39,129 bases of DNA from Gemmatimonadota bacterium. GTDB taxonomy: Bacteria; Gemmatimonadota; Gemmatimonadetes; Gemmatimonadales; Gemmatimonadaceae. The stretch covers positions 6,774-45,902 of the forward strand of contig QHUA01000003.1 of the NCBI GenBank assembly GCA_003221805.1. The letters are read 5' to 3'. Both the position numbers and the translations under genes were made by a program. The notes beneath the pieces were generated by a model. The model ran no database searches, had not been told where the DNA came from, and worked only from the letters and a program-made list of their open reading frames with translations. Shown in pieces: positions 20,074 to 34,615 of the stretch (its first letter is position 1; every line of letters starts with the position of its first letter).

Positions 20074-20080
20074 GCTCCAG

Positions 20081-20107
20081 TTTATACCCGAACATATCCC
20101 GAAGCAA
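20081..20107 (-). promoter_or_regulatory. dnaE2 promoter with TTCGGG direct-repeat operator
   Basis: On the minus strand TTGCTT (20107-20102) and TATAAA (20086-20081) are 15 bp apart. The spacer holds TTCGGG (20103-20098, overlapping the -35 box) and TTCGGG (20092-20087), starting 11 bp apart: TTCGGGATATGTTCGGG. The same 17-mer occurs at imuA and a variant at imuB. The -10 box is 7 nt from the ATG, so the transcription start should fall at or next to the start codon. Confidence 0.8.
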
Positions 20108-20118
20108 GAGGGAGTTTT

Positions 20119-20147
20119 TTGCGATTCGGGCAGGGAGCGCGTAATAG
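20119..20147 (+). promoter_or_regulatory. Candidate promoter of the DUF2723 gene
   Basis: TTGCGA (20119-20124) and TAATAG (20142-20147) are separated by 17 bp, in the 148-bp divergent gap with dnaE2. One TTCGGG half-site directly follows the -35 box, as in the mutasome promoters, but there is no second copy 11 bp on. TAAAAT at 20180-20185 is an alternative -10 box. Confidence 0.35.
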
Positions 20148-20221
20148 GATGCGCGAACGCATCTCGGCCCACGGGTGACTAAAATTCATCGTCCGACCAA
20201 CACCGAAATCTCCACCACATA

Positions 20222-22513
20222 ATGGCAACGAAAGTCTCTCCAGTCAGTTCGAGCCGAAACGACTACCAGCCGGCCAGCAAAGCTTCTGCTTCAGTCCGCT
20301 CAGACGAGAGCGGCTACAAGCCTTCGTACGTTCCAGCCGCGATCGCAGCGGCGCTCGTCTTCATTCTCTACCTCGTCACACTGGCGCCCTCGGTGGCGAT
20401 GTGGGACACCGGCGAGTACATGGCCGCGGTAAAAGTTCTCGGCATTCCGCATCCGCCGGGCAATCCGTTCTTCGTCCTGCTCGGCCACGCCTTCGCTTCG
20501 TTGCCGATTCCGGTTTCTTACGCCGCGCGCATCAACATCATGGCCGCGCTTGCCAGCGCATTGTCGGCCGGGCTCTGGTTTCTCATTGCCGAGCGAATCG
20601 TGGCGCGCTGGATCGACGAGAAATGGCGGCGGCTGGTGGTCGCCAGTCTCGCCACGCTGATCGGTGCGACCGCGTTCACCGTCTGGAATCAGTCGGTCGT
20701 CAACGAAAAGGTCTACACCATGTCGCTGCTGTTCTTCACGATCGTCTCGTGGATCGTCATCGAGTGGATCGAGGAGCCCGACGCGCCAGGAGCCGATCGC
20801 CTCATCGTGCTGGTCTGCTTTCTACTCGGCCTCGGTTACGCGAATCACCCGGCAGGATTTCTTCCGCTTCCGGCGGCTGGTCTGGCGCTGCTCGTCACAC
20901 ACTGGCGCACGATTCTGCGTTGGAGGCTGGTTCTCGTTTGCCTTGGCGCGCTGATTCTTGGCCTGACGCCGTTCATCTTCGAGCCTGTTCGCGCCGCTTA
21001 TTTCCCGCCGATCAACGAAGGCGCGCCGACGGCGTGCGAGACGAAGCTCGAGGCGAGCTGCACGTTCACCAAGCTCACAGAAGATCGGTTGATGGCGAAC
21101 ATCAATCGCGAGCAGTACGGACAAAAGCTGGAGCGCGGAGCTTCGTATCCGGCCCAGGTCGGGATGTGGTGGCTGTACTTCAAGTGGCAGTGGCTGCGCG
21201 ATGAACATCAGGTGATGCAAGGTCTCCAGTTCGTCATCGCGTTCCTCTTCCTCGGACTTGGATTGCTAGGCGGATACGTGCATTGGGAACGAGACCGAAG
21301 GACATTCTGGTATTTCGGTCCGCTGATGTTCACGATGACGCTGGCGCTGATCTACTATCTGAACTTCAAGTACGGCTGGTCGCAGGACCCGGATCTCGGC
21401 AACAGCGTCGCGCGCGAAGTCCGTGACCGTGACTACTTCTACATCTGGAGCTTTTCCGCCTGGGGAGTCTGGGCGGCAATCGGGTTGAGCTTCCTGTGGG
21501 AGCAGCTGGCGTTAGTGATCGGCGGCGAAGCCAAAGCCAACGGGAAAACCGCACCAGAAAAGACGCCAGGGCGAACGCAACCCGCTGTGGCCAGCGGCCC
21601 ATGGCTGTCGCGGCGCAGTTTTCTGCTCGCAGCGCCGATACTTCTCATCGCGCTCATTCCGCTGGTGTCGAACTGGAAATACGCATCGCGCGCCGGTCAC
21701 TACTTCACTCAGCAATGGGCTCACGATTACCTCAATTCGCTCGAGCCGTACGCCATCGTCATCACCAACGGCGATAACGACACCTTCCCTCTCTGGTATG
21801 CACAGGAGGTCGAGGGCGTTCGTCGCGACGTAACCGTTGCGGTCACGACTTATCTCGACACCGACTGGTTCGTACGACAGATGATCCGCCGCCCGGTGGA
21901 GACGTACGACGCCGCTAAAGGCCCCGCGATATACCGCGACAAAGTGTGGAAGAAGCCGTCGGGTCCGCCTCTCAAGATGACGTTCGCGGAAGCGGACGCA
22001 ATTCCTGAATACATACAGATCAACCAGCCGCAGATCTTCCGACAGGGTAACATCACACTCAACATCGAGCCGGGATATCTCGTCCGCGATCAGCTGGTGC
22101 TGCTGCGACTGATCAAAGACGCTTTCCCGGAGCGGCCGATTTATGTCTCGACCGGTGGAGGAGCGGGGCTACATCTCGAGCCCTATCTGCTGTCACAGGG
22201 CTTCGTCCAAAAACTGGTGGATCACCCGATCCAGGATACGGCGGAGACGCCGCACATCCTCGGGTATAACGTGGACCTGCCACGCACGAAAGCACTGTGG
22301 GACACCGTTTATCACGCGCCGGAGGCTCTGATCAAGGAAGGCGACTGGATCGATCGCGCCTCGTTCGGCATCCCTTACACCTACGCATTCACCGGAGCCG
22401 TGCTGAATGAAGCGCTGAAGGCGCGCGGCGATGTGAAGGGCGGCGAAGCGGTAATGAATCGCGTCAGGCAGATCGTCAAAGCTGCGCGCATCGAGAATTT
22501 TCCGGGGATCTGA
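20222..22513 (+). CDS. DUF2723 multi-pass membrane protein (GT-C-like)
   Basis: This 763-residue protein has a polar Ser-rich N-terminus (about 1-35), then some ten membrane helices to about residue 480. The first loop contains SVAMWDTGEYMAA, the acidic motif expected for a GT-C-type glycosyltransferase, followed by HPPGNPFFVLLGHAF. The C-terminal soluble half contains ITNGDNDTFPLWYAQEVEGV and TYLDTDWFVRQM, segments that I recognise as hallmarks of the DUF2723 family, well represented in Bacteroidota and Gemmatimonadota. A role in transferring sugar from a lipid carrier to exported proteins or glycans is plausible from the GT-C fold but is inference. It is divergent from dnaE2 and convergent with the hydrolase gene 17 nt downstream; a small CCGTC/GACGG hairpin (22518-22530) lies in that gap. 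Confidence 0.88.
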   Translation: MATKVSPVSSSRNDYQPASKASASVRSDESGYKPSYVPAAIAAALVFILYLVTLAPSVAMWDTGEYMAAVKVLGIPHPPGNPFFVLLGHAFASLPIPVSYAARINIMAALASALSAGLWFLIAERIVARWIDEKWRRLVVASLATLIGATAFTVWNQSVVNEKVYTMSLLFFTIVSWIVIEWIEEPDAPGADRLIVLVCFLLGLGYANHPAGFLPLPAAGLALLVTHWRTILRWRLVLVCLGALILGLTPFIFEPVRAAYFPPINEGAPTACETKLEASCTFTKLTEDRLMANINREQYGQKLERGASYPAQVGMWWLYFKWQWLRDEHQVMQGLQFVIAFLFLGLGLLGGYVHWERDRRTFWYFGPLMFTMTLALIYYLNFKYGWSQDPDLGNSVAREVRDRDYFYIWSFSAWGVWAAIGLSFLWEQLALVIGGEAKANGKTAPEKTPGRTQPAVASGPWLSRRSFLLAAPILLIALIPLVSNWKYASRAGHYFTQQWAHDYLNSLEPYAIVITNGDNDTFPLWYAQEVEGVRRDVTVAVTTYLDTDWFVRQMIRRPVETYDAAKGPAIYRDKVWKKPSGPPLKMTFAEADAIPEYIQINQPQIFRQGNITLNIEPGYLVRDQLVLLRLIKDAFPERPIYVSTGGGAGLHLEPYLLSQGFVQKLVDHPIQDTAETPHILGYNVDLPRTKALWDTVYHAPEALIKEGDWIDRASFGIPYTYAFTGAVLNEALKARGDVKGGEAVMNRVRQIVKAARIENFPGI

Positions 22514-22530
22514 GCTCCCGTCAGCGACGG

Positions 22531-24573
22531 TTACTTCGTCCGCAGTCCGTATCGGTTCCAGACATCGATCATCCGGTTCCTTGCTGTCGTAGAATCCTCC
22601 GGCAGCAGGAATCGGCGCGCGATGAGAGACGACAGAGATTGGTCGACGCGCTGCAGGAATCGCGTCCTATCGCCGTAAAGCGCCTCGATGCTCGGACGCG
22701 AATCGTCGCTCGCCCGTCGCTCGACTTCCGTCCTCGGGAGTGGTATGAACGTCCCGCGAAAGCTCACCAGTCGGTCAGTTGCCGCCGGCATTCCGGTGCG
22801 AAGCTGCCACGGATAGTACGTCGCCAGCGGCGCAACTATCTCGATGCTGCGGATTCCGCCGAGCTCATTGCCGACGGAATCGACGCGCGACACGAATAGT
22901 AAGTAGGGTGCGCCAAGGGTCGGCGGCTCGCGGTCGATGATGCCAAGACTCCAGCGCGGACCGAAGTCCATTCGATACGGCTGATTGGGAATTCGAGCCA
23001 CCGGCAGATTCGGAATTCTGGGAAACTGCACGTCGGCGGGACGGACGAGGGTTTCCTGCGCGAGCGTGGGGTATGTCGATGCCGGCGGTTCCTTGTTCAA
23101 AGACACCCAGTCGATCAGCGACGACATCAACGCTCTCAACGCCAGGCGCTGATCGAGCGGATCTCCACGGTACCCGCTCGTGCCGCTGATTTGCTCGGAA
23201 TCGGGGAGCGGCCACGCGGACGGACTCGAATGTTGCGCCGACGAGATTACATAGCGTCGCTCAGTGGGGAGAAACCCGACATCCCGTTTTCCGTCGGGCG
23301 TGGTGTGGGTGAGCGAAGCAGCGCGTCCCCAGTACTCGTGCCCACCGTCGACGTAGAAAACCCTGGTCGCGCTGGAGCCGCGAAGATTGTCGCGCAGTCC
23401 GGCGCGCTGGCCGGTAACTGGGTCACTTGTCGGAACGCTGGTGAATGGAAAGACATCGGTCGGATAAAAGAACGTCGAATACGGCTGTGCATCGCGCGAC
23501 GGTTGTGCAAAGCGATGGTTGAAGCTGCCGCGTCCGGCGCCGGCGGTGTGAGCGAAGAAGCCGTCAAACGCGACACGACCCCGCTCGTCGGCGTTGAAAC
23601 CCTGATAGAGGTAGTGGCGGATGAATCTGCCCGTCTGCGAAACGCCGTACCCGATCCCGTACCGAACGTGCGCGATGGCCGATGAATCGTATTTGAGATA
23701 CGACATGATGTCGCGCACGGCGGCGAGACCCGTGCCGACCACCACTGGATCCTTGGCGCGATAAACGACCTCGTAGATTTTGCCCGGCGTGAACCCGTTC
23801 GCCATGTAAACCGATCGCGGATCGGCGACCGCTATCCCCGCGCTCAGTCGCGCAAACTGCCATTCGTTTCGCGGCACGATTGTGCGCGGTCCGGTTGGAC
23901 TGTCGCGGACGGTGAGCCTGTTGATGCGATCGCTCGGATTGGCGACGGGATAGCCGACCGCGGCGCCGAGGAAATGGCCGAGCGGAATCGTCCTGGTGGG
24001 AGCGTCGATGGTGATGTCGCTCCGCACCAGGCCGGTGATGGGACGCGCCGGCGAGCCGACGCGCGGCGGCTGGAAATGCAGTGAGTTCGCCCCGGGCGGA
24101 ACGTCCCACTGCCAGCCGAGCGCGACGATGGTGACGCCACGCTTCATGAGCAACGCGTCGCCGTAGAAATCCGCCGCCAGCGGTGACGAGCGCACGTTTC
24201 TGTCGAGATTGAAGACGAAGGTGGTCAAGCCTCCCCGATTGACGATGTCGACGACGGCGAGATCCGCGGCCGTGGCGTCTTTTGGCCGCAGCATGACGAA
24301 CTCACTCACGGCTTCGACTTCGCCATTGGAATTTCGCGGCGCCAGCTGCAGGTCGACTATCTGAGCGTTGGCCGGATTGGCAGGATCGAACGCGAAGTAC
24401 ACCCGCCCCGCGATGCGCTCATAGGTTCGACCGGCGAAGGTGCCGCTGATGTCGGCGCGGGAAATTATTTCGATGCGAACCACTCGCGCCGACGCGCTCG
24501 CCGCGCCGAGACACAGCGCGGCCACGATCAACAGTGAGAATGCGAGGTTTCGGAGGCCCGTGGTTGATTTCAT
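22531..24573 (-). CDS. Secreted alpha/beta hydrolase domain protein
   Basis: This 680-residue protein starts with a Sec signal peptide (basic MKSTTGLRN, hydrophobic core FSLLIVAALCLGA, AxA-like cleavage near residue 29). The mature part resembles the large alpha/beta-hydrolase_10 type family. The nucleophile elbow is GYGVSQTGRF near residue 311 (Gly-x-Ser-x-x-Gly), followed by HYLYQGFNADERGRVAFDGF. A His candidate lies in VISSAQHSSPSAWPLP. It is likely an exported esterase or related hydrolase; the substrate is unknown. ATG 24573 is well supported by the signal peptide. The 211-bp gap upstream is almost filled by a 190-bp inverted-repeat element, so its promoter must lie in or beyond that element. 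Confidence 0.85.
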   Translation of the reverse strand: MKSTTGLRNLAFSLLIVAALCLGAASASARVVRIEIISRADISGTFAGRTYERIAGRVYFAFDPANPANAQIVDLQLAPRNSNGEVEAVSEFVMLRPKDATAADLAVVDIVNRGGLTTFVFNLDRNVRSSPLAADFYGDALLMKRGVTIVALGWQWDVPPGANSLHFQPPRVGSPARPITGLVRSDITIDAPTRTIPLGHFLGAAVGYPVANPSDRINRLTVRDSPTGPRTIVPRNEWQFARLSAGIAVADPRSVYMANGFTPGKIYEVVYRAKDPVVVGTGLAAVRDIMSYLKYDSSAIAHVRYGIGYGVSQTGRFIRHYLYQGFNADERGRVAFDGFFAHTAGAGRGSFNHRFAQPSRDAQPYSTFFYPTDVFPFTSVPTSDPVTGQRAGLRDNLRGSSATRVFYVDGGHEYWGRAASLTHTTPDGKRDVGFLPTERRYVISSAQHSSPSAWPLPDSEQISGTSGYRGDPLDQRLALRALMSSLIDWVSLNKEPPASTYPTLAQETLVRPADVQFPRIPNLPVARIPNQPYRMDFGPRWSLGIIDREPPTLGAPYLLFVSRVDSVGNELGGIRSIEIVAPLATYYPWQLRTGMPAATDRLVSFRGTFIPLPRTEVERRASDDSRPSIEALYGDRTRFLQRVDQSLSSLIARRFLLPEDSTTARNRMIDVWNRYGLRTK

Positions 24574-24592
24574 GGTCTAGTGGACTGGAGAG

Positions 24593-24782
24593 AAACTACA
24601 ACTGAACGGGTGCGAGGTGTGAGAAGTTTAGTTATCAGGTGTCAGTTCACTACGCCCTGACTTACCTCCGCGCGTGATAGCCACTGCTTGTGCTTGGAAT
24701 GGCGCTTAGAGACGTCACGACGTCGTGAACTGAGAACTGGGAACTATGCCACTCACACCTCGCACCCGTTCAGTTGCAGTTT
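24593..24782. repeat. 190-bp inverted-repeat (MITE-like) element
   Basis: The terminal arms 24593-24623 and 24752-24782 are inverted complements over 31 bp with one mismatch; the core is AACTGAACGGGTGCGAGG. An inner pair, CAGTTCACTACG (24643-24654) and CGTCGTGAACTG (24721-24732), adds 11 of 12 bp, so the whole element can fold into a long hairpin. Three GAACTNN heptamers run from 24727 to 24747. No ORF lies inside. It fills the gap between the imuB stop codon (24785) and the hydrolase start (24573). A diverged single arm is found at 14943-15000. Confidence 0.85.
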
Positions 24783-24784
24783 TG

Positions 24785-26125
24785 TCAGTCCCACCAACCA
24801 TGCAGGTACCACGCATCATCCCGTGCATCTCGAAATAGCCACACCATCATCCCGTCGTCGGTGACACAGCGGAAGTATTCCCGTGCGTACGGCTCGGTCC
24901 ACTGCCCTCCCGAGACGCGATCCGGTCCGGCGGCGGACACCAGCGTCAACCACTCCTTGTCGCGGTACTGCACCGGCATCTGATGATCGCGGCGGCGCCC
25001 GGTCGTCACGGCGACGCGACGCGGCTCGGGCAATAATTGCAGCGTCAGACGCGGAGCAGCGGTCGCCTTCACCACTCGCTCCCTCAATTGAATCCTCGCC
25101 GAAGCCTGCGCCGGCTCCTGACTGATCCACTCCGTGCGACGATCGATCAGCGGATGCTGCGTGTTGCGCGGCGTCACCACTACCGCACCCTGGTCATCGA
25201 GCAGTTGCGCGATCGTTTCTTCCGCCGCTCGCGCCGTCGCGAATCCGCGGTCGAAAATGTCTCCCTGCCGCTCCACTTCGCCGGTGACGGCTTCGACACG
25301 CATCGTGATTCCGACAACGCCGTCGGGCAGAGTGATTCTTTCCAGGTGCGTGCGTATCAGCCGCATCCACGCCTTGTGACTCGCCGTCGATCGCGCCGGA
25401 CGGACCAGATGCTCGTAAGTCTCCTGATTCGCCAGCGAGAAACTCATCGTCATCTCGCGCGCGCACTGCCCGCGCGACTGCAGATCCGTCGTGATGTTGC
25501 CGACGAGCGCGTTGATGATGAAGACGAGCCGCTCCGGATCCTTGAGCGTGTAGTCCACCCAGTCGAGAGATGCCGACGGCAGCGACCGGGGCACGCTGGT
25601 GAAAATCCGGCGCGAATCATCCGCTCTCGACAATCTCCACAGACGCGCGCCCTCGGCGCCGAAACGAACTTCCACCGATTCGAGATCGAGCCTGGCCAAG
25701 TCGGCGCAGCACTCGATGCCGATGCCGTCGAGCAATGACGAGAGAGCGAGCGATGGCTCGAGAACACTGATCGGAAAGTGAGCCAGATAATCGCGCTCGG
25801 TGCCGTGGGCGATGTTGATGAAGCCACCCCTGCCATGGAGTGAAGCCACTTCGGCACTGATCGGAACGATGGAGATGGCAGACCTCACCTTCTCCACTCC
25901 CTTCTCGTGATAGACCTCGACCAGATCTCTCGCCAGTGGCTCGGCGCTCATCCCCCGCCCATCAGCCCAGACGACTCCTTTCGATCCGATCGTCACGCGC
26001 GGAGCTATCGTGAGAAGCGGCGCGACGAGCTCCTGCAGTAGCTCATTCTCGGGCGGGGCTTCGTCGAGAAGGGACAGGGTGGGAGGCGGGACGGCGGACG
26101 GAGTCCAAAGGCAGATGAAGCTCAT
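24785..26125 (-). CDS. imuB: ImuB-like inactive Y-family polymerase, mutasome subunit
   Basis: This 446-residue protein, counted from ATG 26125 (MSFICLWTP), matches ImuB in overall layout. The N-terminal two thirds is a divergent Y-family polymerase fold that lacks the catalytic Asp/Glu set, as expected for an ImuB adapter. The C-terminal part has the ImuB pattern LTLQLLPEPRRVAV, then WTEPYAREYFRC and WYLHGWWD at the end. ERQGDIFDRGF at about 285-295 contains QGDIF, a plausible beta-clamp-binding pentapeptide (compare QLDLF). ImuB bridges ImuA, DnaE2 and the sliding clamp. The TTG at 26149 lies in the -10 box and cannot be the start. It has its own mutasome-type promoter rather than sharing an operon with imuA. 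Confidence 0.88.
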   Translation of the reverse strand: MSFICLWTPSAVPPPTLSLLDEAPPENELLQELVAPLLTIAPRVTIGSKGVVWADGRGMSAEPLARDLVEVYHEKGVEKVRSAISIVPISAEVASLHGRGGFINIAHGTERDYLAHFPISVLEPSLALSSLLDGIGIECCADLARLDLESVEVRFGAEGARLWRLSRADDSRRIFTSVPRSLPSASLDWVDYTLKDPERLVFIINALVGNITTDLQSRGQCAREMTMSFSLANQETYEHLVRPARSTASHKAWMRLIRTHLERITLPDGVVGITMRVEAVTGEVERQGDIFDRGFATARAAEETIAQLLDDQGAVVVTPRNTQHPLIDRRTEWISQEPAQASARIQLRERVVKATAAPRLTLQLLPEPRRVAVTTGRRRDHQMPVQYRDKEWLTLVSAAGPDRVSGGQWTEPYAREYFRCVTDDGMMVWLFRDARDDAWYLHGWWD

Positions 26126-26148
26126 TTCGATACCAGTCGGGCAATCCA

Positions 26149-26177
26149 ACTATATACCGAAGATACCCCGAAAGCAA
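26149..26177 (-). promoter_or_regulatory. imuB promoter with direct-repeat operator
   Basis: On the minus strand TTGCTT (26177-26172) and TATAGT (26154-26149) are 17 bp apart. The spacer contains TTCGGG (26172-26167) and TTCGGT (26161-26156), 11 bp start to start. The expected transcription start near 26142 gives a leader of about 16 nt to ATG 26125. The -35 box lies in the T-rich tail of the preceding operon's terminator. Confidence 0.75.
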
Positions 26178-26214
26178 AGAAAACTAAAGACTACCAGCTG
26201 GGAGTCTTCAGTTT
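26172..26214 (-). terminator. Terminator of the ArsR/AHSA1 operon
   Basis: In minus-strand sense AAACTGAAGACT (26214-26203) pairs with AGTCTTTAGTTT (26192-26181), 11 of 12 bp, with the membrane-protein stop codon in the loop, followed by TCTTTGCTTT. The T-rich tail contains the TTGCTT -35 box of imuB. Confidence 0.7.
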
Positions 26215-26622
26215 GCTTTTCCCTTCGTAGATCTTCCCCCCAATCCAGGCGCAAGGTATCGAGACGAGAACGAGCGCGATCGGATACCAGTGGGGACCGA
26301 ACGCCGGTCCCTTGTTCCACGTCGCAACGGTGGCTACGGTACTGACGAGAACGCCAAGGACACCGAGGTAAAGCGCATGCGTCATTGGCCGATTGGGCGC
26401 GAGTCGGGCCGTGACGTAACAGCCAATGATGCTGGCGATCACACGGTAAGTCGTCGCCCAGGCGAACAATCCGTCGCTCATCCCCTGGCCATAGGGCGGG
26501 AAGACGCCGGTCACGTGCATGACGGCGTCCATCCCCATTGAGAGAATGACGATGACGATGAAGCCGGCGAGCACCGCCCACACACTTCTGCTTTTGCTCG
26601 GTCGCGTCTCGGTTCCGTTCAT
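26191..26622 (-). CDS. Four-helix membrane protein in ArsR/AHSA1 operon
   Basis: This 143-residue protein has a polar N-terminus (MNGTETRPSKSRS), then four predicted helices: about 14-34 (VWAVLAGFIVIVILSMGMDA), 55-75 (WATTYRVIASIIGCYVTARL), 83-101 (ALYLGVLGVLVSTVATVAT) and 108-128 (GPHWYPIALVLVSIPCAWIG). It overlaps the AHSA1-gene stop codon by ATGA, so it is coupled to it and under the same ArsR-type control. I do not assign a function. Transcription ends in a hairpin overlapping its stop codon. Confidence 0.75.
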   Translation of the reverse strand: MNGTETRPSKSRSVWAVLAGFIVIVILSMGMDAVMHVTGVFPPYGQGMSDGLFAWATTYRVIASIIGCYVTARLAPNRPMTHALYLGVLGVLVSTVATVATWNKGPAFGPHWYPIALVLVSIPCAWIGGKIYEGKSKLKTPSW

Positions 26623-27134
26623 GACTTGGCCCCGGCTTTCGCTCGCTCCTTGGTCGACATCGTCGACAGGATTTCGGCGAGCTTGTTGTAGCTCTGAGCG
26701 ACGCCGCTTTCCATCGGGCTCTTGAGTACGCCATCACGGGTCTGCTTCGATACGTAAAGGATCGTTTGCGTCAGCGTCGTCTTGCCGCCACGCTCGACGA
26801 ACGTCACGGTGTCGAGCCCTTCGCCCTCGTACCATGGGGAGTCGAACTTCTCCGTGTTGACGATTCGTTGGTTGGGAACGATCTCCTTATAGACGCCACC
26901 CATTCCCATCTCGGCACCCTCTTTCCGCCAGACGAAGCGGAAACGACCGCCGACGCGCAAGTCGATCTCACACACCGGAAGCGTCCAGCCGCCAAACACT
27001 CCAAGCCAACGTTTGAGCAGCTCGGGCCTGGTGAAAGCGTCGTAAACCTGGTTACGCGGCGCGTTGAAGACACGCGTCATCATGATCTCGCGGTCTCCCT
27101 TCGCTTCGACTTTCAGAGTTCCATCGTTCGACAT
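26619..27134 (-). CDS. AHSA1/SRPBCC-domain protein
   Basis: This 171-residue protein has the Bet v1-like fold of AHSA1-type proteins: IMMTRVFNAPRNQVYDAFTR near 17-36, then LLKRWLGVFGGWTLPVCEID, DLRVGGRFRFVW and TVTFVERGGKTTLTQTILY. These small-ligand-binding or stress-linked proteins are very often encoded next to an ArsR regulator, exactly as here; the ligand is generally unknown. ATG 27134 has a good AAAGGAGA ribosome binding site and lies 12 nt after the arsR-type gene. The C-terminus (STKERAKAGAKS) is a short basic tail. Confidence 0.88.
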   Translation of the reverse strand: MSNDGTLKVEAKGDREIMMTRVFNAPRNQVYDAFTRPELLKRWLGVFGGWTLPVCEIDLRVGGRFRFVWRKEGAEMGMGGVYKEIVPNQRIVNTEKFDSPWYEGEGLDTVTFVERGGKTTLTQTILYVSKQTRDGVLKSPMESGVAQSYNKLAEILSTMSTKERAKAGAKS

Positions 27135-27146
27135 TGGTATTCTCCT

Positions 27147-27497
27147 TTAGCGTTTTTGTATGCGCTTCTTCGTGGCTTTCATTTCCTCGAGGAGCTCGTC
27201 GAGATTTCGAAAGCTCCCCTCCCAGAACCGGCGATAGTTCTCCAGCCACCGCGTTGCTTCGGCCAGGGGCTTGGGCTCGATCCGTGACGGCCGGCGTTGC
27301 GCGTCCCGCCCGCGCGAGATCAGACCGGCCCGCTCGAGAACCTTGAGGTGCTTCGAGACCGCGGGCTGGCTGATGTTGAACGGCCTCGCCAGATCATTGA
27401 CCGACGCTTCGCCGGTGGCGAGACGCGCCAGGATGGCCCGCCGGGTGGGGTCGGCGAGAGCGGTGAAGGTCGCGTTCAGTCGATCAGAGTGCGTCAT
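27147..27497 (-). CDS. ArsR-family transcriptional repressor
   Basis: This 116-residue winged-helix regulator begins DRLNATFTALADPTRRAILA, typical of the ArsR subgroup paired with AHSA1 proteins. The helix-turn-helix covers about residues 32-60 (SVNDLARPFNISQPAVSKHL), followed by the wing RGRDAQRRPSRIE. No metal-binding Cys motif is present, so a metal inducer is unlikely. It heads the operon 27497-26191. Two tandem 12-bp palindromes overlap its promoter, which points to autorepression of the whole operon. Confidence 0.92.
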   Translation of the reverse strand: MTHSDRLNATFTALADPTRRAILARLATGEASVNDLARPFNISQPAVSKHLKVLERAGLISRGRDAQRRPSRIEPKPLAEATRWLENYRRFWEGSFRNLDELLEEMKATKKRIQKR

Positions 27498-27501
27498 GTA
27501 T

Positions 27502-27557
27502 AACCGTATGGTTGTAGAACCTAAGGGTTATATATAAGCCACGACCGCGTTCGTCAA
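27502..27557 (-). promoter_or_regulatory. arsR-type promoter with two tandem palindromic operators
   Basis: On the minus strand TTGACG (27557-27552) and TATATA (27534-27529) are 17 bp apart. Two palindromes of the form AACC-N4-GGTT follow: AACCCTTAGGTT (27529-27518) across the transcription start and AACCATACGGTT (27513-27502) just downstream, 16 bp centre to centre. Binding there would block initiation. The leader to ATG 27497 is about 25 nt. Confidence 0.75.
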
Positions 27558-27604
27558 GGGGTCCGTTGGGAAAAGGCACGGCACCCCCGCCTTCGGCAGC
27601 CGTT

Positions 27605-27610
27605 TAGATT
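27605..27610 (+). promoter_or_regulatory. Candidate -10 box of the DinB-like gene
   Basis: TAGATT lies 6 nt before GTG 27617, so the message could be leaderless. No convincing -35 box was found at the usual distance. Confidence 0.3.
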
Positions 27611-27616
27611 TCATGG

Positions 27617-28156
27617 GTGCACGCGCGATTAGCCGAGACGATGAGCTTCGTCGAAGAAAAGCGCCACGAACTGCTCAAAAGCTTTGAGGGCGTCGACGGT
27701 GAAAAACTTTGCCGGCGCACGGTCCCCGATAGCTGGTCGGTTGCCGAGATCCTTGAGCACTTGCGGATGGTCGAAACAGGCGTTGCGCGCCTGGTCACCA
27801 AACGCGCCGGTCAGGCAAGAGCGGCCGGACTGCCCAGCGAGAAAGAGACGTCGTCGGTGATGTCATCCTTTGACAAGCACGCTGCTTACCTGGATGCCAC
27901 AGTGCTCAAGTCCCCTATCATGGTGCAACCGCGTGCTGACATCGACATCAATGAGGCGCTCGAAGGCCTCGAAAGCTCGCGCGAGGCTTTACGCGCCGCG
28001 GTCGTAACCGCCGACGGTCTGGCTCTGGGCGAGATCAAACACACCCACGTCGTCCTCGGCGAGCTCGATCTCTACCAGTGGCTGATCTTCGTCGGCCAAC
28101 ACGAAAGCCGGCACAAGAAGCAGATCGAGCGTACACTCCAATCCATACCTGAATGA
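27617..28156 (+). CDS. DinB/YfiT-like putative metal-dependent protein
   Basis: This 179-residue protein fits the DinB-like four-helix-bundle superfamily: FVEEKRHELLKSFEGVDGEK at the N-terminus, then PDSWSVAEILEHLRMVETGV with the first conserved His, and HTHVVLGELDLYQWLIFVGQ followed by HESRHKKQIERT with the remaining His residues expected to bind a metal. Members include thiol transferases and hydrolases acting with low-molecular-weight thiols; the substrate is unknown. GTG 27617 gives the full first helix; ATG 27641 would remove eight residues. The stop overlaps the DUF411 start by ATGA. The name DinB refers to a Bacillus damage-inducible gene and does not imply a polymerase. Confidence 0.82.
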   Translation: MHARLAETMSFVEEKRHELLKSFEGVDGEKLCRRTVPDSWSVAEILEHLRMVETGVARLVTKRAGQARAAGLPSEKETSSVMSSFDKHAAYLDATVLKSPIMVQPRADIDINEALEGLESSREALRAAVVTADGLALGEIKHTHVVLGELDLYQWLIFVGQHESRHKKQIERTLQSIPE

Positions 28157-28623
28157 AATCTTCAACGAGACTGGTCGCGCTCGTCGCGGCCTTGAGCACC
28201 CTTGCCCTCACCACCGCCGCGGTTCGTGACATCCGAGCCGGCGACGCGACCAGGAAGCCCACGATCACCGTCTACAAGGATCCCAGCTGCGGCTGCTGCA
28301 AGAACTGGATTCTGTATCTGACCCGGCACGGCTACACCGTCGTCGCCAAGGACACGCCGGACATGCCGGGCGTCAAGCGGACGCTGGGAGTACCCGCGGG
28401 ACTGACCGCCTGTCACACCGGCGTCGTGAACGGTTATCTGATCGAGGGCCATGTGTCAGCCGAGGACATCGACCGTCTGCTGGCGCAAAAGCCGAAGATC
28501 GCGGGCCTGGCGGTGCCCGGAATGCCGGCGAGCTCGCCCGGAATGGACGGCCCGCGAACCAAGGGCTACCAAGTCCTCGCCTTCGACAAGAACGGCAAGA
28601 CGACGGTCTTTGCGACCCACTGA
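28153..28623 (+). CDS. DUF411 metal-binding exported protein
   Basis: This 156-residue protein has a signal peptide (MKSSTRLVALVAALSTLALT, cleavage near residue 23-30). The mature domain is DUF411: YKDPSCGCCKNW with cysteines at 46, 48 and 49, then LGVPAGLTACHTGVVNGYLI with Cys87 and His88, EGHVSAEDI with His100, and LAVPGMPASSPGM near the end. DUF411 proteins are thioredoxin-like and often linked with copper handling in the periplasm, which suits the Cys/His/Met-rich motifs. It is translationally coupled to the DinB-like gene. No other copper gene is in the window. Confidence 0.9.
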   Translation: MKSSTRLVALVAALSTLALTTAAVRDIRAGDATRKPTITVYKDPSCGCCKNWILYLTRHGYTVVAKDTPDMPGVKRTLGVPAGLTACHTGVVNGYLIEGHVSAEDIDRLLAQKPKIAGLAVPGMPASSPGMDGPRTKGYQVLAFDKNGKTTVFATH

Positions 28624-28673
28624 CGGTGCCTTAGACGGCTCTTAGCGGGGAACCTCCGACAGGCATGGAACAC

Positions 28674-28702
28674 TTGCGGGGTGGTGGATGTTTATATATA
28701 CA
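28674..28702 (+). promoter_or_regulatory. Promoter of the GNAT gene
   Basis: TTGCGG (28674-28679) and TATACA (28697-28702) are 17 bp apart. The -10 box ends 6 nt before ATG 28709, so the transcript probably begins at or near the start codon. Confidence 0.5.
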
Positions 28703-28708
28703 TTCGCC

Positions 28709-29284
28709 ATGCATAATTCCCCAAGCGCAGCCCGGCCTCTAAGCGTCGCCAAGACTGTCACCGCGTCATCGACGACGGTGAGGCGTGCCGTGCGCGCTGA
28801 CGCCGGACAGATTCTCGAGCTGGTGAATCCGTACGCTGCTCAGGGATTGATGCTGCCGAGGACGCTGGATCAGATCGCCTCGCGCATCGACAGCTACGTC
28901 GTCGCAGCCGATGCGGGCGGGCGGGTGATCGCCTGTGCCGCGCTCGAGGAGTATTCGCCGTCTTTGGCCGAAGTTTCGTCGGTCGCGGTGGCCCCTGCGC
29001 ACCATGGCAATGGGCTCGGGACTCAAGTAGTGCTGGGCGTCGAGCGAGTCGCTCGCTCGAGGGACATCGAGGAGCTGTTTGCCCTGAGTCTCACCGACCA
29101 GTTCTTTCTCTCGCTTTCCTACAAGCCAACGACGATTTCACGGTACCCGGAGAAGCTAGCGCGCTACGACGCGCTATCGCGTTCGGGCGTCGATATCGTT
29201 CCCAAGCGTTGTTTCCAGAAGACCCTTGGGAAGGAGTGGAATCCGCCGCGACTAGTATCTCGGCGTAGGGCGCGCGGCGCCTAG
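28709..29284 (+). CDS. GNAT acetyltransferase, N-acetylglutamate-synthase-like
   Basis: This 191-residue GNAT protein counts from ATG 28709 (MHNSPSAARPL); ATG 28688 lies in the spacer of the promoter. Residues 25-110 hold VRRAVRADAGQILELVNPYA, QGLMLPRTLDQI and SLAEVSSVAVAPAHHGNGLG, the last containing the acetyl-CoA loop. This pattern is that of the short single-domain N-acetylglutamate synthases (ArgA of the mycobacterial type). The end (RYPEKLARYDALSRSGVDIV) replaces the more Cys-rich C-terminus that I expect in that family, so an arginine-biosynthesis role is probable but not certain. The stop codon is the first part of a long hairpin. Confidence 0.8.
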   Translation: MHNSPSAARPLSVAKTVTASSTTVRRAVRADAGQILELVNPYAAQGLMLPRTLDQIASRIDSYVVAADAGGRVIACAALEEYSPSLAEVSSVAVAPAHHGNGLGTQVVLGVERVARSRDIEELFALSLTDQFFLSLSYKPTTISRYPEKLARYDALSRSGVDIVPKRCFQKTLGKEWNPPRLVSRRRARGA

Positions 29285-29400
29285 TTCGCGAATACAAAAA
29301 CTAAAGCGGGGAGCAGTAAGCTTTGTCAGCTAAGTGCTCGGAGCTAAGCTCCGAGCTCTGAGGCTGACTAGGCTTAAAGCTCCCCGCTTTTGTATTGAAC
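29284..29400. terminator. Long multi-stem hairpin between convergent genes
   Basis: Nested perfect stems: GTTC/GAAC (29284-29287 with 29397-29400), AATACAAAA/TTTTGTATT (29291-29299 with 29388-29396), GCGGGGAGC/GCTCCCCGC (29306-29314 with 29379-29387), AAGC/GCTT (29318-29321 with 29372-29375), GTCAGC/GCTGAC (29325-29330 with 29363-29368) and GCTCGGAGC/GCTCCGAGC (29336-29344 with 29348-29356) around a TAA loop. GC-rich stem followed by TTTTGTATT on either strand suits a bidirectional terminator, but it is far larger and more regular than usual; a structured RNA or mobile hairpin element is possible. Confidence 0.8.
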
Positions 29401-29438
29401 CAAGCCCGATCGTGCCAAGATCAACTGGCCGCCTTGAC

Positions 29439-30704
29439 TTAGCGCTCGACGATATCCTGGAGCGCCTGCCGTATCGCCGGATCAGAGTTTCGTGACAGCG
29501 CGGAGATCGCCCGGCGTTTGAGCTGGTAGTTCTGCTCGTTGCGCGCGATCCACACCAACTTGTCCGTCGCTGCCTTGTCGGCAAGCCGTGAGTAGATACC
29601 GATAAGCGTGCTGCGCAGCTGAGTATCCTGAGTGGGATCGTAAAGCGCGAGCAGTGTCGGCGTCGTCGCGCCGGAGCGGGACAGGTACTCGAGAGCCCGG
29701 CGGCGATTCTCCGGCGGTTGTTTGTCGTCGCGGACGATCCCCATCAGCCATTGGACATTCTCGGTCCCCCCAAGATCTGCGACCGACGCCAGCACCGCAT
29801 CGCGCGAGCGATCGCCGGTGAGGCGCGGATACTGAGAGCGAATCAGATTCGCGTCCTGTCCGGTCACGTAGTTACGGCCAAGCCCGCGGATCGCTACCGC
29901 GAGCAGCTCGTCGGGAAGATCCGTTCTTTGAACGGTCGAACGCAGGAATTGACGCGCGCGCGGATCACCGGAGTTCGCGAGCACCCGCATGCTCTCGCGT
30001 CCGACCCACGAAGTTGTATTGCTGTTGGCGAGTTGGACGAGAGATGGGATTCCGGCGCCGTGATCGAGACGCGATAGCACCGACAGTGCCTGCGTCCGTA
30101 CCTGCTGCGCATCGTTCTCGTTGGTAGCAATCTGCAGAAGCGCCGCGCCGACCCGATCGAGCTGGCGTGAGTCGCTCTTCGCCAGACCCCAGAGCGCCGC
30201 CCGCCGCGTCTCGAGCGGCCTCGTCTGATCTCGTCCGATATCGAGCAGGCGTGAAGTCACTTCGACGCTATCACCAAGCAGCGCGGCGGAAATCGCATCG
30301 CGACCAACGCGACCATCGGCGCGAGCGGCGACAGTGAGGAGATAATCCGCGGCTTCGGCCGGGGCGACTGTCCCAAGGTCGGTCACGCCGGCATCGACGG
30401 TTCCAACTCCGACGTACATGCGAAGCGCAACGACGTTGCGATCAGCGAGATCGAGCACGACGCGAACCGGGCCCGTCTGACATTGCTCCGTCGACGAGCT
30501 CGAGTAGAACCCGTAGAAATTCCCGGGACCAGTCGAGATGTATGTGCGTCCGTCACCGCACACGCCCGGCCGCGCCTTGTAGCTGAATTGCACCGAACGA
30601 TCCGACGCCGACGCGATGCGGCTGGCGAGCGTCTGCGCGCCCGATACCGAGTTGACCGCGAGGAGCGCGAGAACGGTCGCCGTCGCGACACGGAGTTTGG
30701 TCAT
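29439..30704 (-). CDS. Exported HEAT-repeat protein (second of a tandem pair)
   Basis: This 421-residue protein has a signal peptide (MTKLRVATATVLALLAVNSV, cleavage near 23). A unique segment (about 25-115) with two cysteines (GVCGDGRTY, STEQCQTG) precedes the repeats. From about 130 to the end it is built of HEAT-like helical repeats, for example VRTQALSVLSRLDHGAGIPS and PENRRRALEYLSRSG. The C-terminus (RRAISALSRNSDPAIRQALQ) closely parallels that of the upstream gene (RRYAISALSRKNDPRTKKLL), so the two arose by duplication. It overlaps the upstream stop codon by ATGA. Probably a periplasmic protein-binding scaffold; the partner is unknown. Confidence 0.83.
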   Translation of the reverse strand: MTKLRVATATVLALLAVNSVSGAQTLASRIASASDRSVQFSYKARPGVCGDGRTYISTGPGNFYGFYSSSSTEQCQTGPVRVVLDLADRNVVALRMYVGVGTVDAGVTDLGTVAPAEAADYLLTVAARADGRVGRDAISAALLGDSVEVTSRLLDIGRDQTRPLETRRAALWGLAKSDSRQLDRVGAALLQIATNENDAQQVRTQALSVLSRLDHGAGIPSLVQLANSNTTSWVGRESMRVLANSGDPRARQFLRSTVQRTDLPDELLAVAIRGLGRNYVTGQDANLIRSQYPRLTGDRSRDAVLASVADLGGTENVQWLMGIVRDDKQPPENRRRALEYLSRSGATTPTLLALYDPTQDTQLRSTLIGIYSRLADKAATDKLVWIARNEQNYQLKRRAISALSRNSDPAIRQALQDIVER

Positions 30705-32572
30705 TTGTCGATGATCTCCAGTAGAAGCTTCTTGGTTCGCGGATCGTTCTTGCGCGAGAGCGCGGAAATCGCGTAGCGCCTCATGTCGGGATCGGTTCCA
30801 TTGCGCGCGATCTCGAGGAGCTTGTCAGTTGCCTGCGGCTCGTCGCGACGCGAGTACAACGCGATCAGCTGCTCCCGCAGCTGCCGGCTGTCGGCGACGT
30901 CGTACATCTTCGTCAGATCCGCGATCGGAATCGTCGAGCGGCCGGCATAACGCAAGGCGCTGGCGCGCACTTCCGACGGCTCGTTCTGGTTTCGCGCGAT
31001 CGAGAGCAGCCACTGATCGTTGTCGTTACCGCCAATGCGGGCGGCCGCACGAACTGCGGCGGCCTTGAGACGAGGGGATTCGAGCTTCGGGTAGATCGAC
31101 CGGATGTAGGCGTTGTCGGGCGTGTGCTCGGCGTCGACACTCGACAGCGCGGTCATGCGCAGGCTTTCAGGGATGTCGTTTCTCTCGATGATGTTGCGCA
31201 GGCTCTGGCGGGCGCGTGGATTGTCGCTCCTGCCCAGCGCCTCGATGGCAGCGCGCTGCAGCTGCTCGTTGCCGGGGGTGCGTGCCATTTCTTCGATGGT
31301 GGCGACCGGCTGGTCGCCCGGCATCGCCGCGAGGAAACGCAGCGCGTCGGCGCGTACCCTGATATCGGGGTCGTTACGAGCAGCGCCCATCACCAGATTC
31401 CTTGCTTCGTCGTCGGTGCGGCGACCAAGGATGTAGACCGCCGCGCGACGGAGGGTCGCCGAGCAGTCGTCGCGACGGGCGAGCAGGCGAGCCAGAATTG
31501 GCGTCGTCGACTCGGGATCGGTTTGACCGAGTGAGTTCAATGCCTCGACGCGGACGGCCAGATCTTCGCGATCACATGAAGCGCCGGGTTGCGTAGCCGC
31601 CTGATTTAGGGCTTTTCGCGCGTCGCCATCTCCCTGCGCGGCGAGAGCGGCCCGGATGCGGGTCGCCAGGACGGGCGCATCGGTCTTGAGCGAGGCGAGG
31701 CGATAGTTGGCCCCGGTATCCTGGAGCGTCGCCAGAGCAGTCCGCAGATCGTTGCTGCCACCGATGCGATAGAGAGCGAAGGCCTTCCAGTACCGGGCGT
31801 CTGCCGCGTAAGCCGAATTCGGAAATCTCTGCGTGATGTCGCCGAAGAGTTCGGCCGCGCGCCGATATTCTCCGCGGTTCAGCGCCTCACGAGCGAGACG
31901 ATAAAGAGAATCGGCGGGGTCCGACTGACTATAGGACTCTGGTGGATTGCTCGTGATTCCGCCGAACTGGCGCTCGAACGGAGACAGTCCCTGCACGCGT
32001 GCGAACGCGTCCTTGCTGAACGCGATCGCCGGTGCGATCGGCGCCAGTTCCATCGCGCCGAGTGGCGCCATCATTGGCTCCATCGGCGGCAGCGGCGCCA
32101 TCTCCGGCATTGGAGTCATCTCGGGCATCGGCGGCATCTCTGGCATCGGCGCCAATTCCGGCAGCGGTGGGAGGTCGGGCACCGGTGGCACGGTCGGCAT
32201 CGCGAAGTCGAAGTCAATGTCCGGCATCGATTCCCAAACGCGATCCATTGCCAGCGCGGCGGGCGCGAGGTCGAAGTCCATGTCTGGCATCTCGATCGGT
32301 GGAATCGGCGGGATCGGCGGGATCGGCGTAACTAGATCGAAGTCCATGTCCTTCAGCGCGTCGAGACGATCCTCGAGGTCGAGGAGATCCGATCGCCACA
32401 CTTTGGGCAGCAGTGGCGCTCGCTTCGCTTTGGGGGCGGGAGTCGGTTGCACCGGTTTGACTTCCGGCGAAGGCGGCGCGGGAACTGGTGCCGGCTCCGG
32501 CGTCGGATTCTGCGCTCCACTGGAGAGAGCGCTGGCAGCCAGTGCGACGGCGATGAAAGTTGCTCTGATCAT
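30701..32572 (-). CDS. Exported Pro/Met-repeat, TPR and HEAT-repeat protein
   Basis: This 623-residue protein counts from ATG 32572 (MIRATFIAVALAASALSSGA), a clear signal peptide with a GGGAAGG-type ribosome binding site. A Pro-rich stretch follows (about 22-55), then an unusual region (about 70-200) with repeated MDFDL/DIDFDF units, IPPIPPIPPI and MPEMxPMPEM runs. Next comes a TPR-like pair (ALNRGEYRRAAELFGDITQR and ARYWKAFALYRIG) similar to the end of YbgF/CpoB proteins. HEAT repeats fill the C-terminal half (for example LRRAAVYILGRRTDDEARNL). The gene lies 13 nt after the anti-sigma candidate and is coupled to its paralogue downstream. Likely a periplasmic scaffold or sensor in the ECF signalling operon; the role is inferred from context. 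Confidence 0.8.
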   Translation of the reverse strand: MIRATFIAVALAASALSSGAQNPTPEPAPVPAPPSPEVKPVQPTPAPKAKRAPLLPKVWRSDLLDLEDRLDALKDMDFDLVTPIPPIPPIPPIEMPDMDFDLAPAALAMDRVWESMPDIDFDFAMPTVPPVPDLPPLPELAPMPEMPPMPEMTPMPEMAPLPPMEPMMAPLGAMELAPIAPAIAFSKDAFARVQGLSPFERQFGGITSNPPESYSQSDPADSLYRLAREALNRGEYRRAAELFGDITQRFPNSAYAADARYWKAFALYRIGGSNDLRTALATLQDTGANYRLASLKTDAPVLATRIRAALAAQGDGDARKALNQAATQPGASCDREDLAVRVEALNSLGQTDPESTTPILARLLARRDDCSATLRRAAVYILGRRTDDEARNLVMGAARNDPDIRVRADALRFLAAMPGDQPVATIEEMARTPGNEQLQRAAIEALGRSDNPRARQSLRNIIERNDIPESLRMTALSSVDAEHTPDNAYIRSIYPKLESPRLKAAAVRAAARIGGNDNDQWLLSIARNQNEPSEVRASALRYAGRSTIPIADLTKMYDVADSRQLREQLIALYSRRDEPQATDKLLEIARNGTDPDMRRYAISALSRKNDPRTKKLLLEIIDK

Positions 32573-32585
32573 CCTTCCCCTTCCC

Positions 32586-33236
32586 TCATTCTGAGGATTG
32601 AGTTGTGGCAACCGCGGAGTTGAGACGCGAGATGACGTCTCCCTGTTCAACAGCCTGATGAATTAGATCGAGATCACCCTTGTTTCGTTCGCCGCGGAGT
32701 CTGGCGATCTGAACTAGAACGAGCTCCAGATCCTCGAGGAGCGAGCGGAGCTTCGGATCCTGGGTCGCCGCGGGTGAGTCGATGAGCAGGCGAGTCGTGA
32801 CGAGCAGGTCTGCCGCCTTGTTGGCGAACGTGGCGTCTGCTTGCTGAGTGCCGGCCTTGGCCGGCAACGAGATGAGGAGCGCCGCCGCCTGGCCGAGGTA
32901 CTGGTTGGTCTGGTCGCGATAGGCGTCGGCGACGGCGGAAGTGTCGTATAAAGGCAGCTGGGTGCTGGAGGCGGGCGGCCGGGAGCCAAGCGTGGACTCA
33001 GGCGTCGGACCGGCGCTCCTTGTCGGCATGTATCGGCCGATGCCAATGCCGACGAGAAGCGCGGCGGCCGCGGCGAGCCACGGCGTGCTCTGCGTCCAAA
33101 CCCGGGAGGTCGATGCTGTCCGCGCGTTGAAGTGGGCGTTCTCGATCACCCGCCACATCTCTTCGAGTGGCGGGTCCGGAACCTTGAAGTCGTCGGGAAG
33201 GTTGCGGATCAGATCGTCAAAACGGTCGTCGTCCAT
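32586..33236 (-). CDS. Putative membrane anti-sigma factor
   Basis: This 216-residue protein starts at ATG 33236 (MDDDRFDDLIRNLPDDFKVP), 5 nt after the ECF sigma stop codon and with an AAGGAG ribosome binding site inside the sigma gene end. The N-terminal 45 residues are acidic and cytoplasmic. One membrane helix lies at about 50-68 (PWLAAAAALLVGIGIGRYMP). The C-terminal 145 residues are predicted helical and periplasmic. No HxxxCxxC zinc motif is present, so it is not a classical ZAS anti-sigma. The call rests on position directly behind the sigma gene and on the single-helix topology. Confidence 0.65.
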   Translation of the reverse strand: MDDDRFDDLIRNLPDDFKVPDPPLEEMWRVIENAHFNARTASTSRVWTQSTPWLAAAAALLVGIGIGRYMPTRSAGPTPESTLGSRPPASSTQLPLYDTSAVADAYRDQTNQYLGQAAALLISLPAKAGTQQADATFANKAADLLVTTRLLIDSPAATQDPKLRSLLEDLELVLVQIARLRGERNKGDLDLIHQAVEQGDVISRLNSAVATTQSSE

Positions 33237-33241
33237 CTTCG

Positions 33242-33820
33242 CTACTCCTTGAATGCAGCGAGTGCTTCTCGCAGCTGCGCTCTGGCCGCGGAGAGCCGAC
33301 TCTTGCACGTCCCCTCGGGGACGCCCAGAATCTCGGCGATTTCCGCGTGCGTATATCCCTCAATGTCGTGCATAATCAGCGTCGTTCGATAAGCATCAGA
33401 TAGTTCTTCCACTGCTCGGGCGATGCTCTCCTTGAGATCCGGCTCCGCTTCCGGAGCGGTCTCGATCGAATGTGCTTCGTCGAGCGTGACTTCACGTGCA
33501 ATTCTTACTTCGCTCCGTCTTGCGTTTGAAACTACCGTGACCGTGATCCGGTGCAGCCAGGTCGAGAATGCAGCGTCGCCGCGGAATTGCGCGAGCCTGG
33601 AGAAAGCGCGGATGAACGTGTCCTGCGTGAATTCCCGCGCTTTTTCCGGGTCACCGCTCAGTCGATACGCGAGCGAGTAAACCCGGGGCGCGTGCGTGTC
33701 GTACAGCGCACGCCCGGCCAACCGATCTCCCGCGATGACCCGGGCGATGAGCTGTCTTTCGTTCACGCGGGGTGTTATCCGCCGACCTTGGTCGCGACCA
33801 TTGGCTAATAACTTCGACAC
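33242..33820 (-). CDS. ECF sigma factor (RpoE-type)
   Basis: This 192-residue factor has only regions 2 and 4. Region 2 runs from about 25 to 105 (LSGDPEKAREFTQDTFIRAF, AAFSTWLHRITVTVVSNARR). Region 4 runs from about 135 to 185 (ELSDAYRTTLIMHDIEGYTH, AEIAEILGVPEGTCKSRLSA). The acidic linker (ETAPEAEPDLKE) is normal. The start is GTG 33820; GTG 33766 (VNERQLIARV) is equally possible and lies closer to the usual family start. It heads an operon with the anti-sigma candidate and two exported HEAT proteins, a plausible cell-envelope stress circuit. A clear self-recognised promoter was not found. Confidence 0.92.
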   Translation of the reverse strand: MSKLLANGRDQGRRITPRVNERQLIARVIAGDRLAGRALYDTHAPRVYSLAYRLSGDPEKAREFTQDTFIRAFSRLAQFRGDAAFSTWLHRITVTVVSNARRSEVRIAREVTLDEAHSIETAPEAEPDLKESIARAVEELSDAYRTTLIMHDIEGYTHAEIAEILGVPEGTCKSRLSAARAQLREALAAFKE

Positions 33821-33878
33821 ACCGACCGTACGGATCGTTCGGTAGTCTGGTTACTGGCCCGCAGTTCCCAGCTCGGAA

Positions 33879-34577
33879 TCAGTTTTTGTAGGTCACTCCT
33901 CGCCTATCCTTGATCCCCGGCTCCAGCCCAATCCTCAGGTCGTAGGGCACGACAGAGACAGGAAAGTCTGCGCTCCGATTCCAGCCCAGTGAGCGGGCGC
34001 GGACGCGGATCATTACTTCCTGCGCCTCGGCGGGGTCGCCGAATGGAGTCTTCTTCCAGCGATAGGTATCGCGCAGAATCTGCGACGTCATGCGCAGACT
34101 CGCCATCGATGCGTGTGAAGTGAGAGTGACGAGCGCGCCTCCTCCCTCACGCGCGGCGCGAGAGAGCCGCACCGTCTCGGTACCCTCGGGCTCGATCCCC
34201 GAGAGAACGACGAGAGCAAATCCTCCACAGCGAAGCAGCTCCTCCGCTCCACGGAGCCCGTGCTTGCGACTGCGCGGCCGAAAGAGAATCGGCCCTTCTT
34301 CCCAGAACGGACCAGCAACGGTGCCGAGTCCATCGATCCATACCGCCCTCTCACCCTGGGCGACGGTGGTGTGGCAGGCAGCACGTAGCACCGCCGTCGC
34401 ACCACCTTGCGGCATCCAGACAGTCAGTCGGCTGCGAGGCAGGCCATGTCCGGGGAGGATTGCATCGAGCGCCTCGATGCCCGTCGCCACTGGTTCCGCT
34501 GTTCGGTGAGTGACCGGTGTCGCATCTGGAAATCGATGCTCGATGAGTGCGCGGATAGCGGCATTTCGATCGGACAT
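33879..34577 (-). CDS. imuA: ImuA-like RecA-fold protein, mutasome subunit
   Basis: This 232-residue protein matches the ImuA/SulA-like group of RecA-fold proteins. RTAEPVATGIEALDAILPGH (about 25-44) and GLPRSRLTVWMPQGGATAVL (45-64) align with the RecA-like N-terminus. The Walker A site is degenerate: MPQGGATAVL lacks the GKT/S signature. EELLRCGGFALVVLSGIEPE and VRLSRAAREGGGALVTLT are the following core strands. ImuA works with ImuB and DnaE2 in damage-induced translesion synthesis. Start ATG 34577 lies 9 nt after the -10 box. The usual neighbour imuB is 7.8 kb away. It runs divergently from the lipoprotein gene, with only 66 bp between them. Confidence 0.82.
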   Translation of the reverse strand: MSDRNAAIRALIEHRFPDATPVTHRTAEPVATGIEALDAILPGHGLPRSRLTVWMPQGGATAVLRAACHTTVAQGERAVWIDGLGTVAGPFWEEGPILFRPRSRKHGLRGAEELLRCGGFALVVLSGIEPEGTETVRLSRAAREGGGALVTLTSHASMASLRMTSQILRDTYRWKKTPFGDPAEAQEVMIRVRARSLGWNRSADFPVSVVPYDLRIGLEPGIKDRRGVTYKN

Positions 34578-34586
34578 AGCTCTGCT

Positions 34587-34615
34587 AGAATAGCCCGAAC
34601 ATATCCCGAAAGCAA
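34587..34615 (-). promoter_or_regulatory. imuA promoter with TTCGGG direct-repeat operator
   Basis: On the minus strand TTGCTT (34615-34610) and TATTCT (34592-34587) are 17 bp apart. The spacer holds TTCGGG (34610-34605) and TTCGGG (34599-34594), 11 bp start to start, giving TTCGGGATATGTTCGGG, identical to the dnaE2 copy. The -10 box ends 9 nt before the ATG, leaving a leader of 0-3 nt. Confidence 0.8.

Follow-up and report, generated by a model that had tools for sequence, protein, structure and literature searches.

LexA boxes are usually mirror-image sequences; that of Gram-positive bacteria is the palindrome GAAC-N4-GTTC. The direct repeat GTTC-N7-GTTC was reportedly assigned by Mazon et al. 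to the LexA of Acidobacterium capsulatum, with lateral transfer proposed for its origin. The same repeat is given as the alphaproteobacterial LexA box in PMC8565304, while the passages of PMC7739468 on the Balneolaeota box give TTACACATATTTTWTACATA, confirmed by electrophoretic mobility shift assay (EMSA). The gene for the error-prone polymerase DnaE2 is described, in PMC3919608, as usually lying in LexA-regulated cassettes, contiguous or split, and a Gemmatimonadetes genome with DnaE2 is tabulated there. We found no report of a Gemmatimonadota LexA box in the open-access PubMed Central literature, from which subscription papers are mostly absent, so that absence from print is not shown. Here we describe the direct repeat TTCGG-N6-TTCGG, which occurs three times in a 39,129-nucleotide stretch of a Gemmatimonadota genome (the whole stretch is called the window below), in the promoters of the mutasome genes dnaE2, imuB and imuA. 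Comparison of sequences across the phylum makes it very probable that this repeat is the LexA operator of Gemmatimonadota.

The genome concerned, G000 (3.14 Mb in 247 contigs, 91.8% complete), is that of a Gemmatimonadaceae bacterium, judged by its closest named LexA relatives. In the window the three genes are separate units, all on the minus strand, with the following features; the promoter elements were read by eye.

16915..20073, minus strand: dnaE2, error-prone DNA polymerase (NF004225, 1043.8 bits, above the cut-off of 939)
20079..20107, minus strand: predicted dnaE2 promoter, -35 TTGCTT at 20102-20107, spacer of 17 base pairs (bp), -10 TAAACT at 20079-20084
20087..20103, minus strand: putative LexA box of dnaE2, TTCGGGATATGTTCGGG (exact pattern match, read in the sequence)
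24785..26125, minus strand: imuB, inactive Y-family polymerase relative, ATG at 26125 likely (DNA polymerase IV models, E 4e-10, below their cut-offs)
26149..26177, minus strand: predicted imuB promoter, -35 TTGCTT at 26172-26177, 17-bp spacer, -10 TATAGT at 26149-26154
26156..26172, minus strand: putative LexA box of imuB, TTCGGGGTATCTTCGGT (exact TTCGG-N6-TTCGG match, read in the sequence)
33879..34577, minus strand: imuA, RecA-like mutasome factor (NF033429 ImuA, E 1.1e-8, 35.2 bits, below the cut-off of 150)
34587..34615, minus strand: predicted imuA promoter, -35 TTGCTT at 34610-34615, 17-bp spacer, -10 TATTCT at 34587-34592
34594..34610, minus strand: putative LexA box of imuA, TTCGGGATATGTTCGGG (exact pattern match)

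The first-pass annotation had noted a 17-mer common to the dnaE2 and imuA copies, from which the imuB copy departs at two spacer bases and one base of the second half-site, and the sequence bears this out. Its placing of the box between the -35 and -10 elements needs adjusting: the box does fill the 17-bp spacer, but TTGCTT overlaps it rather than preceding it, by one T at imuA and imuB and by two at dnaE2. Because the two elements overlap, a search for them in series returned a single unrelated site.

Outside the window, the genome's own lexA (G000:C15:16774-17379, minus strand) has two TTCGG boxes closely upstream, and not the different box that the first-pass annotation had named as grounds for giving up the LexA reading. 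Two or more boxes precede lexA at each of the 29 close loci read, of 30 (L069, its start misread, was left out); two precede it at all 50 of the named Gemmatimonadota loci for which upstream DNA was available and at 20 of 20 loci from other orders or another class, and none of the 27 lexA loci of other groups has two. Those 50 and 27 loci together are 77 of 80 regions (L138, L154 and L176 had no upstream DNA), the set from other orders and another class covers 15 of the 24 same-class genomes of other orders and all five other-class genomes with a match, and the sets overlap in organisms. A recA match was found in 25 of the 30 genomes searched; in relatives, all 24 recA promoters read (the truncated L108 and L109 left aside) carry the box within one mismatch; by simple arithmetic, roughly 1% of comparable single-strand stretches should match as well. 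Among other DNA-damage genes, uvrA in G000 and the mutasome genes are boxed.

The geometry was counted in 65 main-class lexA promoters, taken from the named and the other-order and other-class sets. The N6 spacing occurs in all 65 and is the only one that does; spacings of N10 to N12, found in 16 to 20 promoters, fit the gap between the two boxes. The mirror image CCGAA/TTCGG appears in none or one of the 65 at any spacing from 0 to 15, so the arrangement is not that of a palindrome. In 61 promoters a TTGnnn and a TAnnnT hexamer flank the box, 17 bp apart in 60, a count by consensus only and with no shuffled control. By its position, such an overlap would let a bound repressor block RNA polymerase.

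Counts against chance point the same way for exact copies. The three in the window compare with an average of 0.19 over 300 simulated first-order Markov sequences, not one of them reaching three, and the genome-wide check that had been proposed gives 13 exact copies in G000 against 3 of the reversed pattern; allowing up to two mismatches to TTCGGNNNATNTTCGGG, the figures are 77 and 22. Besides the three in the window and the two closely upstream of lexA, exact copies stand before uvrA, before a radical SAM gene (closest family Rv2578c, below cut-off), before a 190-aa protein and before a small open reading frame (ORF), neither of the last two having a family match above cut-off. A Rad52-family gene lies on the opposite strand close to the boxed small ORF. 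In eight relatives taken together, TTCG-N7-TTCGG(G/T) gives 182 matches against 62 for the control. Neighbourhoods were inspected for 16 of 24 listed matches in G064 and 4 of 24 in G010; the genes recognised by eye in these 20 stretches include uvrA, imuA, two radical SAM genes and, in G064, a ruvB-like gene, and several of the matches lie inside or beside genes with no damage role. One box recurs beside the same ORF at two places in G064, about 53 kb apart (L278 and L279, G064:C3), and may be carried by a duplicated or mobile unit.

The box also appears to track the break-up of the mutasome operon. All three members of an ImuA-ImuB-DnaE2 mutasome are recognisable in the window, DnaE2 alone above its cut-off and ImuA and ImuB below theirs; the ImuA protein has no match in Pfam, and the Pfam IMS_C match of ImuB is below cut-off at E 0.029. 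They are neighbours in most of the relatives compared, where imuB stands between imuA and dnaE2 and imuA in most cases adjoins imuB. Of 29 imuA homologues, 27 are preceded by an exact TTCG-N7-TTCG box. When genes are classed as separate or adjacent by a threshold of 1,000 bp on the distance between match ends, imuB has its own box in three of four genomes where it is apart from imuA and in none of 13 where the two adjoin (Fisher p 0.006); dnaE2 has one in four of four genomes where it is apart from imuB and in none of ten where it is adjacent (Fisher p 0.001), p-values that overstate independence as the genomes are related. Left out of these tables were 10 distant imuB matches (L236-L245) and 8 distant dnaE2 matches (L260-L267). 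One of these favours the pattern, the imuB of G058, separated from imuA by 3,964 bp and with a box 343 bp ahead of the match; in the stretch scanned, up to 350 bp, no exact box was found at the remaining nine imuB or at any of the eight dnaE2, five of which are adjacent to imuB by match ends. Within the window's genus, imuA and imuB are adjacent and imuB lacks a box in G007, and they are apart and imuB is boxed in G000, G004 and G048. Boxes would thus follow transcription units, and imuB seems to have acquired its box as the operon split, which suggests that a mutasome acquires boxes as its operon breaks up. The gap between imuB and imuA (window 29439-33820) is occupied by two HEAT-repeat-like ORFs together with a sigma-factor-like/anti-sigma-like pair, as read by eye, and these seem to be what separates the mutasome genes in this lineage. 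At dnaE2, the ATG at 20073 falls almost on the predicted transcription start; a longer ORF, up to 20172, would cross the promoter, which can alternatively be read with -10 TATAAA at 20081-20086 and a 15-bp spacer.

Several observations weigh against assigning the box to LexA throughout the phylum. With one mismatch allowed, the window count of 6 shows no excess over a mean of 5.03 (43 of 100 shuffles reach 6). Four of the 13 exact copies in G000, on contigs C1, C2, C119 and C124, have no sensible target, that on C119 lying inside an ORF resembling leuS; we take these four as chance. The looser pattern has hardly more matches than its control in G011, 19 to 16. Two imuA homologues, L211 and L218, are without an exact box. 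So is imuB in G013, 1,087 bp from imuA, and likewise in G016 (888 bp) and G040 (712 bp), both classed as adjacent; none was found at the distant dnaE2 of G006 (whose imuB match is 1,151 bp away), or of G009 and G010, which have no imuB match. Finally, no recA was found in the G000 assembly; a RecA-family match there, barely above cut-off, looks KaiC-like by eye, and one other match falls below cut-off. The proposed check at lexA, recA and uvrA nevertheless comes out for LexA, the first and last being boxed in G000 and recA in relatives.

The protein in question, LexA1, has LexA helix-turn-helix (HTH) and S24 domains (TIGR00498, 208.8 bits, cut-off 110.95). Aligned by eye with E. coli LexA, whose structure is solved, it shares the Ala-Gly of the cleavage site and the active-site Ser and Lys. 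The boxes at lexA, recA and uvrA, joined by those that follow transcription units, argue for a LexA box of the phylum, the first of the options that the first-pass annotation had offered for this lineage. A LexA dimer would be seated on the direct repeat, binding two half-sites of the same direction one helical turn (11 bp) apart, and would cover the spacer of sigma-70-type promoters and block RNA polymerase. Once DNA is damaged, RecA filaments would promote LexA self-cleavage, releasing lexA, recA, uvrA and the mutasome genes; we extend promoter occlusion and RecA-driven release to this system because they are established LexA biology. The imuA-imuB-dnaE2 operon has come apart in the genus of the window, and every resulting unit has a box of its own.

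Lateral acquisition of an alphaproteobacterial LexA system, the box being simply GTTC-N7-GTTC, is the alternative that survives best and is still improbable. The likeness is real, since layout and 11-bp period are the same, as the first-pass annotation had pointed out. The recognition helices differ, however, SLATVHEHL here against SKSGIHRLI in the two alphaproteobacterial LexAs compared (the latter is absent from LexA1, which reads NSLATVHEHL), and the LexA tree places both alphaproteobacterial proteins outside the group formed by Gemmatimonadota and Acidobacteriota. In the box, bases other than G can precede TTCG, and the fifth base is G. GTTC-N7-GTTC itself occurs in 3 of 77 lexA upstream regions, all of them from Gemmatimonadota and overlapping TTCGG boxes, so these regions do not generally carry the alphaproteobacterial box.

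Slightly less probable again is ownership of the box by another regulator, for example a second LexA-like protein, LexA2, or some unrelated regulator of the damage response with lexA among its targets. G000 does encode two proteins with LexA HTH and S24 domains, and co-location marks a regulon rather than the protein that binds. Against this, TTCG-N7-TT(C/T)G is absent from all 16 upstream 150-bp regions of LexA2-type genes, whereas lexA1 has two boxes throughout, and genomes with a single LexA match at E 1e-20 (G001, G010 and G060 among them) carry the boxes too. Because none of those 16 regions holds the box, LexA2 may use another site. LexA2 (L015:1495-2142, G000:C196) is LexA-like with a recognition helix that differs from that of LexA1. 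Upstream of it in the window's genus (L308, L309 and L310) stands a common mirror-image word, GTACGnTTTCGTAC, beside TTGACC, possibly an operator of its own. That no regulator is involved and the repeats arise by chance in GC-rich promoter spacers is scarcely credible: one-mismatch copies are indeed common by chance in the window, but exact copies exceed chance, occur at damage genes throughout the phylum and are present where operons split.

A further lead concerns the fifth base of each half-site. LexA proteins with Glu in the recognition helix (VHEH) go with TTCGG in 65 of 65 promoters, those with Lys (VHKH) with TTCGC in 19 of 23, the remaining four showing no recognisable box. The Lys-type cases with TTCGC-N6-TT(C/T)G are all five from another Gemmatimonadota class and 14 of the 16 from Acidobacteriota-like loci (L157, L158, L161 and L163-L175, one labelled Acidimicrobiia), for which this sequence is a candidate LexA box. 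A Lys genome of that other class, G208, has a TTCGC box, TTCGCTTTTTATTCGC, directly before umuDC (L365:1035-2500, G208:C48). It is plausible, though we hold the idea tentatively and with some doubt, that this one helix residue sets the fifth base and that the operators of the whole regulon switched along with it in an ancestor of the main Gemmatimonadota class; Glu would contact cytosine, and Lys the guanine on the other strand.

Several points tell against this pairing of residue and base. A single residue change suffices on the LexA tree, which makes the correspondence one event, a lead and no proof; the tree, from a small sample, is rooted at the midpoint and leaves out LexA2, E. coli, Streptomyces, L187 and L189, on account of long branches met in a first tree (LexA2, E. 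coli). Two VYKH proteins (L182 and L185) go with T at the fifth base, and the pattern TTCGS-N6-TTCGS shows no enrichment in four Lys genomes of the other class, where its matches sum to 147 and those of the control to 170. No TTCGC box stands upstream of lexA in a Neomarinimicrobiota genome whose LexA (L177) is of the Lys type; what does stand there is a tandem CGGTTTTTGTTCACT(T/A)ATTATA repeat, possibly a different LexA box. The correspondence nonetheless makes a natural residue-to-base pair available for testing.

An operator of this kind would make the damage-inducible and mutagenic genes of a soil-common phylum predictable from sequence and give it a testable SOS operator. A direct-repeat box served by a Gram-positive-like recognition helix also bears on how the LexA target has changed repeatedly in evolution. 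Set beside the alphaproteobacterial box, that of Gemmatimonadota has the direct repeat, the period and the TTC of the half-site in common, and differs in a half-site extended to TTCGG, whose fifth base is fixed while the base ahead of it is free to vary; the recognition helices differ as well, and the proteins are not close in the tree. Gram-positive LexA has a similar helix (STVHGHL, against ATVHEHL here) and a half-site containing GTTC, yet its box is palindromic, whereas the Gemmatimonadota half-sites run in the same direction and no palindromic spacing of CCGAA/TTCGG is enriched. The A. capsulatum box, from another phylum, is also a direct repeat; the Acidobacteriota-like loci compared here, with TTCGC-N6-TT(C/T)G and a Lys-type, non-alphaproteobacterial helix, are unlike the GTTC-N7-GTTC reported for that species. 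Balneolaeota is likewise a little-studied phylum with a direct repeat brought out by comparative genomics: its half-site sequence differs, and its box is EMSA-confirmed, that of Gemmatimonadota predicted from sequence.

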